Made by a program: the position numbers and the translations under genes
Part shown: piece by piece, positions 34,153-42,155 of the stretch
How positions within the stretch are numbered: position 1 is the stretch's first letter
Layout: the number at the start of each line of letters is the position of its first letter
Assembly (NCBI GenBank): GCA_019636235.1
Contig: JAHBXW010000001.1
Span: 434,001 to 498,000, forward strand
Source: Planctomyces sp.
GTDB taxonomy: Bacteria > Planctomycetota > Planctomycetia > Planctomycetales > Planctomycetaceae
Length of the DNA: 64,000 nucleotides
Direction of reading: 5' to 3'
Notes under the pieces: model-generated
What the model was told of the DNA's origin: nothing
The model's input: the letters and a program-made list of their open reading frames with translations, nothing else
Databases searched by the model: none

Positions 34153-35190
34153 ATGTCCGAACGTCCGGAGCGCATCGCAACCGAAGCCGAGTTGGATGAG
34201 GTCCTGACGACGCCATCTCCGGAACTGGTCGAGGCCGTGCGCGACCTGTCGAGCCCGCTGGTGCTGCTGGGCGCGGGGGGCAAGATGGGGCCCTCGCTGG
34301 CGTTGCTGGCCCGCCGCGCGGCGGACGCGGCGGGTATCCCCCTGTCCATCGTCGCGGCCAGCCGCTTCCGGGACGCCGCGGGCCGCGACTGGCTCGAATC
34401 GCACGGCATCGGAACACAGAAGTGCGATGTGCTGAACCTCGACGACCTCGAACGGCTGCCGGATGCGGCGAACGTCCTGTATCTCGTCGGACAGAAATTT
34501 GGGACGCAACAGGATCCCAGCTCGACGTGGGCGACAAACACGCTGGCCCCTGCCCTCTCCGGAGAGCGCTACCGGGGCTCGCGGATCGTTGCGCTGTCGA
34601 CGGGCAACGTCTACCCGCTGGCGCGCGTCGCCGCCGGCGGATCCGTGGAAAGCGATCCGCTCACGCCGCTGGGGGAATACGCCAACGCCGCAGTCGGCCG
34701 GGAACGAATCTTCGAGCATTGTTCCCGCCGGGACGGGACGCCCGTCGTGCTGCTGCGACTGACGTACGCGCTCGACCTGCGTTACGGAGTCGTGGCGGAC
34801 ATCGCCGGGAAAGTGCATCGCGGCGAGCCGATTCCGCTGGCCACCGGCCATTTCACCGGCGTCTGGCAGGGGGACGCCAATGAACTCATCCTGCGCGCAT
34901 TCCCGCTGGCCGCGTCGCCGCCGGCCGTGTTCAACCTCAGCGGCGACCAGATGCTCTCGGTGCGGGACGTCGCCATTCGCCTGGGAGAACTGCTGGACCG
35001 CGCACCCGTGTTTCAGGGGACGGAGTCGGAGACGGCTGTCGTCAGCAACACGTCGCGGCTCGCCGCGGCGCTGGGGCGCCCCCGCACGCCGATCGAGACT
35101 GTCTTGCGCTGGACGGCCGACTGGGTGCGACGCGGCGGGCGGTCGTTGCACCGTCCGACGCATTTCGAAGTCCGGGATGGGGCCTATTGA
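34153..35190 (+). CDS. NAD(P)-dependent epimerase/dehydratase-like protein
   Basis: A 345-residue extended-SDR-like protein. The Rossmann nucleotide loop GAGGKMG lies at residues 40-46 and STGNVYP fits the end of the next strand. The usual YxxxK is not seen: after Tyr in LGEYANAAVG the Lys position is Ala, so a classical SDR mechanism may not apply. LEYAN..GRERIFEH and VRDVAIRLGEL fit UDP-sugar epimerase-like C-terminal regions. It is translationally coupled (TGATG) to the DapA-like gene. Probably cytoplasmic sugar or aldol metabolism; the substrate is unknown. Confidence 0.68.
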   Translation: MSERPERIATEAELDEVLTTPSPELVEAVRDLSSPLVLLGAGGKMGPSLALLARRAADAAGIPLSIVAASRFRDAAGRDWLESHGIGTQKCDVLNLDDLERLPDAANVLYLVGQKFGTQQDPSSTWATNTLAPALSGERYRGSRIVALSTGNVYPLARVAAGGSVESDPLTPLGEYANAAVGRERIFEHCSRRDGTPVVLLRLTYALDLRYGVVADIAGKVHRGEPIPLATGHFTGVWQGDANELILRAFPLAASPPAVFNLSGDQMLSVRDVAIRLGELLDRAPVFQGTESETAVVSNTSRLAAALGRPRTPIETVLRWTADWVRRGGRSLHRPTHFEVRDGAY

Positions 35191-36254
35191 TGCCGGAATT
35201 CGCGACGATCGGGCCGGACGTCGGCGCAGCCCTGCGCCAGGGACTCGTGATTCCGGCCCACCCTCTGGCGCTGACGCCGGAGCGCCGCCTCGATGAACGT
35301 CGGCAGCGGGCGTTGTCGCGGTACTACCTGGAGGCCGGCGCCGGCGGCCTGGCGGTGGGAGTGCACACGACGCAGTTCGAGATTCACGACGCATCGGTGG
35401 GACTGTTGCGGCCCGTGCTCGAGCTGGCGGCGGAGACATCCCGAACGTTCGCGAGCGGCGGTCGGCCGCCTGTTCTGGTCGCAGGGATTTGCGGACGGAC
35501 GGCCCAGGCGGTTCGCGAGGCGGAACTGGCGTGCGATCTGGGATATCACGCGGGGCTGTTGTCGCTGGCGGCCTTCGGCGGCGAAGCGGATGACGTGCTG
35601 CTCGCGCATGTTCGCGCCGTGGGGGCCGTGTTGCCCGTGTTCGGCTTTTACCTGCAGCCGGCGGTGGGAGGTCGGCGGCTGGAGCACTCGTTCTGGCGGG
35701 CGTTTGCCGAGATTCCGGCGGTTGCCGCGATCAAGGTGGCGCCGTTCAACCGCTATGCGACTCTGGATGTCGTGCGGGCGGTCGCCGACTCCGGGCGCGC
35801 AGCGGAAATCGCGCTCTACACCGGAAATGACGACGCGATTGTCGCCGACTTGCTGACGCCCTGGCTGGCCGGGCCGGGCGCGAGCCCGCTGCGATTCGTG
35901 GGGGGACTGCTGGGCCACTGGGCCTGCTGGACGAATTCGGCGGTCCGCGTTCATCGCCTTTGCCGCGATGCGGTCGCTGCGGGGATGGCCTCGGCGGACG
36001 TGCTGGCGCTGAGCGCGATGGTGACGGACATGAACGCCGCACTGTTCGATGCGGCGAACGGTTTCCGGGGCTGCGTGGCTGGGATCCATGAGGTCCTCCG
36101 CCGCCAGGGACTTCTGTCCGACGTGCGGTTGCTGGACCCGGACGCCGGCCTCAGCCGGGGGCAGTCGGCGGAGCTGGATCGGGTCATCGCCCGGTATCCG
36201 CACTTGACGGACGATGAATTCGTCGCTGAGAACCGGGACCGCTGGCTGTCCTGA
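35190..36254 (+). CDS. DapA/NanA-family aldolase-like protein
   Basis: A 355-residue class I aldolase of the dihydrodipicolinate synthase/N-acetylneuraminate lyase family. The Schiff-base Lys is Lys182 in AAIKVAPFN, and GFYLQP (Tyr near 154) fits the catalytic Tyr region. The N-terminus IPAHPLALTPERRLDERRQRALSRYYLEAGAGGLAVG is typical. The pair with an epimerase-like gene suggests a sugar-acid or aldol catabolic role rather than lysine synthesis. ATG 35190 overlaps the previous stop by one base. A weak AACCC/GGGTT hairpin follows but was not called a terminator. Confidence 0.75.
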   Translation: MPEFATIGPDVGAALRQGLVIPAHPLALTPERRLDERRQRALSRYYLEAGAGGLAVGVHTTQFEIHDASVGLLRPVLELAAETSRTFASGGRPPVLVAGICGRTAQAVREAELACDLGYHAGLLSLAAFGGEADDVLLAHVRAVGAVLPVFGFYLQPAVGGRRLEHSFWRAFAEIPAVAAIKVAPFNRYATLDVVRAVADSGRAAEIALYTGNDDAIVADLLTPWLAGPGASPLRFVGGLLGHWACWTNSAVRVHRLCRDAVAAGMASADVLALSAMVTDMNAALFDAANGFRGCVAGIHEVLRRQGLLSDVRLLDPDAGLSRGQSAELDRVIARYPHLTDDEFVAENRDRWLS

Positions 36255-41561: not shown

Positions 41562-42155
41562 ATGGCCAAAAAGAAGCCCGTCAAGAAGGTCAAGAAGCTC
41601 CGCCCCGGCCGCATCGTGATGCGGACCGGCGAGGCCCTGGTCGAGGTCGAAAACGGCCCCGGCTATCTCGCCGCGGAACCGGAAGTCGTGATCGGGGAAC
41701 TCGACGGCCCCGTCGGCTACGCGATTGCGAACCTGATTGGCGATCAGACCAAAGGGCACTCGCGCGTCTTCGCGATCCTCAACTGCGACGTGCAGGTCCG
41801 GCCCACGACGTTGATGGTCAGCAAGGTGACCGTCAACAGCGAGAAGTACACGAACATCCTGATGGGATCCGTGCAGGCCGGCATCGCCAACGGCGTCCTG
41901 GATTCGGTCCGCTCGGGAGAGCTGCCGATCGAGAAGACCGATGACCTGGGGATCATTGTTTCTGTATGGCTGGACCCCAGCGTCCTGTCGGCCGAGACGG
42001 TCGATCACGCCGGGCTGTTCGAATCGAATCGGCTGGCGACGGCCAAGGCCATCCGCAAGGCGATGCGCGGCGAGCCCAAAATCGACTGGCTGCTGAAGAA
42101 CCAGAACACGATCACGCACTTCTTCCATCAACTGGGCGTCGACGGCGAACTGTGA
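41562..42155 (+). CDS. Formaldehyde-activating enzyme (Fae) homologue without the active-site His
   Basis: A 197-residue Fae-family protein. The core signature GEALV, then EVVIGELDGPVGYAIAN, VKP-like VRPTTLMVSKVTVN, and DDLGIIVSVWLDP matches Fae, which condenses formaldehyde with tetrahydromethanopterin. The basic leader MAKKKPVKKVKKLRP is not in classic Fae. When aligned with the family, the segment VAHIDLIIG of Fae corresponds to AAEPEVVIG here, so the active-site His appears replaced by Glu39, with a four-residue insertion nearby. It may be a binding or regulatory paralogue rather than an active synthase. No H4MPT-pathway gene is adjacent; PEP carboxykinase is next, on the other strand. 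Confidence 0.8.
   Translation: MAKKKPVKKVKKLRPGRIVMRTGEALVEVENGPGYLAAEPEVVIGELDGPVGYAIANLIGDQTKGHSRVFAILNCDVQVRPTTLMVSKVTVNSEKYTNILMGSVQAGIANGVLDSVRSGELPIEKTDDLGIIVSVWLDPSVLSAETVDHAGLFESNRLATAKAIRKAMRGEPKIDWLLKNQNTITHFFHQLGVDGEL

Follow-up and report, generated by a model that had tools for sequence, protein, structure and literature searches.

Whether a protein of the Fae family that has lost the catalytic histidine still activates formaldehyde is the question raised by a gene located in a 64,000-nucleotide stretch of Planctomyces sp. DNA (hereafter the window; positions 434,001 to 498,000 of contig JAHBXW010000001.1, assembly GCA_019636235.1). An earlier note on this DNA had described the gene product as a Fae homologue with, apparently, glutamate in the place of the active-site histidine. 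The deduced protein matched Pfam Fae (PF08714) over residues 22–188 with 185.2 bits (cut-off 27), and its score with the equivalog TIGR03126 (formaldehyde-activating enzyme) was a near miss, 117.6 bits against a cut-off of 118.05; a member of the same clade (locus L063) scored 118.2, just above this cut-off. The alignment with PDB 1y5y spanned residues 21–188, and in it the AHID of 1y5y faced the AEPE of the window protein; therefore, the reading of Glu-39 at the histidine position was correct. The features of the gene are listed in Table 1.

Table 1. Features of the Fae-family gene of the window and their conservation among distinct paralog sequences.
Feature	Position in window	Strand	Evidence or conservation
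Fae-family paralog gene, stop codon included (197 aa)	41562..42155	+	ORF; Pfam, NCBIfam and PDB matches
Lysine-rich N-terminal leader, residues 1–17	41562..41612	+	Common, not universal, among relatives
Insertion relative to canonical Fae, residues 27–30	41640..41651	+	V29 73/74, E30 74/74; first two residues 5/74
E39-P40-E41, replacing canonical H-I-D	41676..41684	+	E, P and E each 74/74 paralogs
F70, at presumed contact Leu-48, changed	41769..41771	+	Phe 72/74; Leu 26/28 in comparison sequences
K88 and T90, at presumed contacts Lys-66 and Thr-68, kept	41823..41831	+	K88 74/74, T90 73/74
Q105, at presumed contact Gln-83, kept	41874..41876	+	74/74
D138-P139 (comparison sequences: His 28/28, Trp 25/28)	41973..41978	+	74/74 paralogs
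Second insertion, residues 141–145, not in canonical Fae	41982..41996	+	Fifth position empty in 65/74

The alignment sample comprised 131 loci, from which 102 paralog ORFs (74 distinct sequences) were compared with 30 other Fae ORFs (28 distinct, namely 26 stand-alone canonical sequences and two fusion domains). At the position of the catalytic histidine, Glu was present in all 74 paralogs, whereas all 28 comparison sequences showed His. Since the E-P-E motif was common to the 74 distinct sequences, a frameshift or sequencing artefact was ruled out as its origin. In the numbering of Fae-Hps, the active histidine, which faces E39 of the window protein, is presumably His-17, and we take the pterin contacts to be Asp-19, Leu-48, Lys-66, Thr-68 and Gln-83, with Asp-19 presumably corresponding to E41. 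Three of these five presumed contacts were kept (Lys, Thr and Gln) and two were changed (Asp to Glu and Leu to Phe). The E-P-E paralogs had in addition further invariant residues of their own, among them E30, Y96-T97-N98, W136 and R157, which suggests that their active site was changed and not decayed.

As to whether a different histidine occupies the active site, none appeared to do so by alignment. H66 and H186 were present in 74/74 and 73/74 paralogs, respectively, and the same residues were found in 26/28 and 27/28 comparison sequences; since the latter carry both too, they are not substitutes for the lost histidine. The four-residue insertion that had been noticed before the motif is present in the window protein, but its first two residues are missing from 69 of the 74 paralogs. 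Similarly, the lysine-rich leader was frequent among the relatives (Lys at position 3 in 46/74) but not universal, leader columns 1–7 being empty in 13 to 19 of the 74; three of seven paralogs inspected, with start codons assigned mechanically, start just ahead of the core.

The window ORF is under purifying selection, with a dN/dS of 0.14 by NG86 when compared with the ortholog of the same genus in genome G087, with which it shared an identical residue at 160 of 196 aligned codons. Its third-position G+C was 87%, and the strand opposite the gene was open across 263 codons, which was taken as a by-product of the high G+C. A scan for sigma-70-type promoter sites near the gene gave none, in line with the chance expectation.

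An AlphaFold2 model of the window protein, obtained with 37 family sequences, showed a mean pLDDT of 85.1 (74–78 for the other four models) and was weak at residues 62–69 and 74–77. The top Foldseek match of the model was M. extorquens Fae (1y60_D; E 4e-15, TM 0.74/0.85, 31% identity), and the matches at or below 0.001 were five Fae chains only. As judged from this model, the window protein has the Fae fold. With the canonical Fae of Methylorubrum extorquens (1y5y/1y60) it shares the predicted fold, the core motifs and the presumed K/T/Q pocket, but it differs by the replacement of His by Glu, Ile-Asp by Pro-Glu, His-Trp by Asp-Pro and Leu by Phe, by the two insertions and by the absence of C1 neighbours. 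The Fae domain is in common with archaeal Fae-Hps as well, but the hexulose-phosphate-synthase domain is absent from the window protein, Fae being the single Pfam match in its 197 residues.

The earlier note had proposed to look for a canonical Fae elsewhere in the genome. When the whole genome was searched with PF08714, the window gene was one of two matches; the other, stronger (252.7 bits) and located on contig C5, corresponded to an intact 165-aa ORF (L001 1489-1986) reading VAHIDLIIG. The 283-aa ORF after this canonical fae showed weak matches to dehydrogenase families and, judged by its position, was taken for a putative methylene-H4MPT dehydrogenase. The fhcD gene was found over the cut-off; with canonical Fae and fhcD present, the window gene is therefore a paralog in an organism that has at least these components of the H4MPT pathway. 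The fhcD search gave two matches in many genomes of the family, the window's own included, and a second formyltransferase-like paralog may exist. According to the part of PMC3628875 available, Fae genes are typical of planctomycetes, although methylotrophy has not been demonstrated for them.

Any Fae match was found in 29 of 294 genomes drawn from the phylum, and a match to the window protein in 164 of 170 genomes of the family. The close paralog (63–100% identity), delimited by the gap in the match listing between E 9e-71 and 2e-28, was present in 116 of these 170 genomes, the other 54 showing no copy. A further Fae match stood beside it in 107 of the 116 genomes and was absent in nine, several of them incomplete drafts. 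In the same family, fhcD was detected in 167/170 genomes at E ≤ 0.001 and in 164/170 over the cut-off. The E-P-E form was also found in two genomes from other families of the phylum (G064 and G133), and an in-frame stop lay within the match in two of the 116 family copies (G374 and G438).

Outside the planctomycetes, the E-P-E form is known here from plasmid records alone. A translated search of such records gave 44 with Fae matches; ten of the closer relatives were inspected, together with five Fae ORFs from four more distant records. Nine of the ten closer relatives showed M-P-E at the motif (39–47% identity to the window protein), and the sole E-P-E copy among them (61% identity) was that of Methylobacterium sp. 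DM1 plasmid pLVM1 (L132 7992-8540), a plasmid typed as conjugative. The five distant ORFs keep the histidine, four as A-H-I-D and one as A-H-I-N (Caballeronia sp. SBC1). The M-P-E proteins, encoded by plasmids of Azospirillum, Azoarcus, Aquabacterium, Caballeronia, Thiodictyon, Methylobacterium and Phyllobacterium, resemble the window protein in the lost His, the P-E and D-P pairs and the insertions, one of which is similar to residues 141–145, but their residue at the His position is Met and not Glu, and they keep an N-Y-E-A-T-K stretch.

In a tree of 76 rows, with the motif columns left in, the E-P-E planctomycete rows and DM1 formed one group (support 99/98) and the M-P-E rows another (99/97), a branch of length 3.17 (100/100) separating the two together from all H-type rows. 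Since the DM1 row was nested among the planctomycete rows, the tree suggests that its copy was acquired horizontally from a planctomycete, although the terminal branch of this row was long. The Caballeronia row had a branch of 6.1 and an unsure position. What had been presented as a lone odd protein belongs instead to a lineage with invariant E-P-E, and the loss of the histidine is common to a proteobacterial sister group with Met.

The neighbours of the window gene were indeed not C1 genes, as had been noted: those with a family match were an RND pump, PEP carboxykinase and a MarR regulator. In the Pfam scan of six window proteins, two were without any match, one of them being the neighbour at 35184-36254 (scanned in frame from three bases before the start codon). 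The planctomycete search covered 102 loci, which include redundant ones and many whose flanks extend to about 1.5 kb only. No conserved neighbour was found in the planctomycete loci; when their ORFs were delimited mechanically, the most frequent neighbour family reached 9 of 70 loci. The window's own operon context was discarded as a lead: among the 102 loci, PEP carboxykinase occurred in its own locus only, and the RND pump in its own locus and, distantly (26% identity), in L106 only.

The DM1 gene directly follows genes for a glutamine amidotransferase, glxC, an FMN-binding glutamate-synthase-like protein and a type III glutamine synthetase (glutamate-ammonia ligase), which were read as predicted mgsABC-gmaS of the N-methylglutamate pathway, whose genes are described in the accessible text of PMC5023235. 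M-P-E contexts were taken from six annotated records, three further records being without gene annotation there. The M-P-E gene lies immediately after the fhc operon in two of the six (Azoarcus and Aquabacterium); that of Azospirillum oryzae follows a chemotaxis receptor gene and has nearby annotations for a glycine-betaine binding protein, a ring-hydroxylating dioxygenase and an NADH:flavin oxidoreductase, read as betaine demethylation. The Caballeronia, Thiodictyon and Phyllobacterium contexts showed no such link. In Phyllobacterium an RND pump stands beside the M-P-E gene as well, which was taken as coincidence.

When mgs, gmaS, fhc and betaine proteins of DM1, A. oryzae and Azoarcus were used as queries, no match was found in the 102 planctomycete loci; the A. 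oryzae chemoreceptor had matches (28–34% identity) in three of them. In the window's genome, no type III glutamine synthetase scored over the cut-off, and for this reason a methylamine role cannot be general. Within the family, the association of the paralog with this synthetase was weak (50/63 vs 66/107, Fisher p 0.018, ignoring kinship and completeness), and the synthetase was rejected as a phylogenetic partner. A gmaS-mgs operon guessed from ORF lengths in L063 was likewise rejected, the four ORFs having matches to thyX, a glycoside 3-dehydrogenase-like gene (under the cut-off) and bioD, with none for the fourth. Since neither a planctomycete neighbour match nor a type III glutamine synthetase was found, the amine link is a proteobacterial lead and not a result on the window gene.

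Conservation, phylogeny, co-occurrence with canonical Fae and predicted fold place the window protein among the uncharacterised Fae-like paralogs, of which it is a conserved variant of its own, and its function is inferred from these observations; the non-canonical function suspected in the earlier note is reasonable. We prefer, tentatively and at less than even confidence, a pterin-binding, C1-handling Fae paralog which is not the cell's main formaldehyde-activating enzyme. Such a protein would retain the fold of Fae and some of its pterin pocket, with both conserved histidines swapped for acids (H to E39 and H to D138) and the I-D pair turned into P-E. It would most likely bind a tetrahydropterin, which, given the canonical Fae and fhcD of the genome, would be H4MPT, and would handle its one-carbon adduct, E39 or E41 being a possible acid/base. 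Its secondary task might concern C1 from N-methyl compounds, or the carrying or releasing of methylene units, and bulk condensation with formaldehyde would be left to the canonical Fae on the other contig.

This preferred reading is in agreement with the Fae matches and the Fae-fold model, with the retention of K88, T90 and Q105 while E39/P40/E41 and D138/P139 are invariant, with the frequent presence of another Fae match beside the paralog and of fhcD in the family, and with the location of proteobacterial copies after fhc, after predicted mgsABC-gmaS or near betaine genes. Against it stand the two changed positions among five contacts that are all presumed, the planctomycete loci devoid of a conserved neighbour, the result with type III glutamine synthetase and the weak model regions.

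Extra Fae-like genes beside a canonical fae are likewise found in methylotrophs as Fae2 and Fae3, which are likened to the window gene by description only. In the portions of PMC5023235 available, Methyloversatilis fae3 was 11.7-fold up on methylamine, and the fae1 fae3 double mutant, unlike that of fae1 alone, gave no methylamine revertants, both of which favour a C1-handling paralog; the authors suggest C1 shuttling between carriers. The same portions speak also against it: single fae2 and fae3 deletions grew normally, the lack of a growth defect on single fae3 deletion being reported as well in the accessible part of PMC11748545, and a fae1 revertant still grew on methylamine after fae3 had been deleted from it. 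According to the available text of PMC11748545, a tree of 78 Fae sequences has five groups, groups 2–4 being of unknown function, and Methylotuvimicrobium fae3 and fae1-2 did not rescue the growth of a fae mutant of Methylorubrum in liquid medium with methanol. No description of a His-to-Glu Fae form was found in the open-licence literature, searched mostly by Fae and homologue names.

A sensor or regulator, which would bind methylene-H4MPT or formaldehyde and relay a signal without being a catalyst, perhaps by joining the oligomers of canonical Fae, is rather unlikely. Sensing and signalling roles have been proposed for Fae-like proteins (PMC3728764 and PMC4109929, in the parts accessible), and both the co-occurrence with another Fae match and the chemotaxis receptor gene preceding the A. 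oryzae copy, with receptor-like matches near the gene in a few planctomycete loci, would fit. However, the window protein carries no regulatory domain, Fae being its sole Pfam match, there is no conserved partner gene, and nine genomes, several of them incomplete drafts, have the paralog without another Fae match.

Still lower is the probability of an ordinary isozyme, that is, a functional Fae with Glu-39 taking over the role of the histidine. Glu can act as an acid/base, and the three kept pocket positions and the purifying selection would be expected of an active enzyme, but Met occupies this position in the sister clade, and D138 also replaces a canonical His. The TIGR03126 score of the window protein, just below the cut-off (that of the L063 member being just above), counts against it, as may, by analogy, the failure of the published fae3 to complement (PMC11748545, available text).

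A broader proposal, which we consider doubtful, is that the x-P-E clades represent an enzyme class of their own, built on the Fae scaffold and moving one-carbon units between carriers with carboxylates replacing the histidines; H4MPT could, for example, receive such units from methylene-H4F or from an N-methyl-derived donor. The E-P-E form would then have evolved in planctomycetes and been taken up by a Methylobacterium plasmid beside predicted methylamine-pathway genes. A relic without present function is very improbable, since the in-frame stops in two family copies and the genomes without a copy are outweighed by the invariant motif and the low dN/dS.

With its conservation and its remodelled active site, this Fae paralog offers a defined way to test whether Fae-like proteins act as enzymes, as C1 carriers or as sensors, which the accessible parts of PMC11748545, PMC5023235 and PMC3728764 leave open. 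For proteins without the H-I-D motif, a PF08714 match is not a safe basis for the annotation "formaldehyde-activating enzyme".

Other Fae-domain proteins were met in the course of the searches. In a planctomycete (G051 contig 193), two tandem genes (L151 10224-11645 and 11645-13123) encode a DHDPS-family aldolase fused to a C-terminal Fae domain, reminiscent of Fae-Hps, both without the pocket Lys; this type of fusion was found in one of 294 phylum genomes at E ≤ 1e-60, and it could link the release of formaldehyde by an aldolase to a Fae-like capture of it. A plasmid of Methylocystis iwaonis (L145 3983-5763) carries two tandem fae genes followed by an unnamed ORF of like length.
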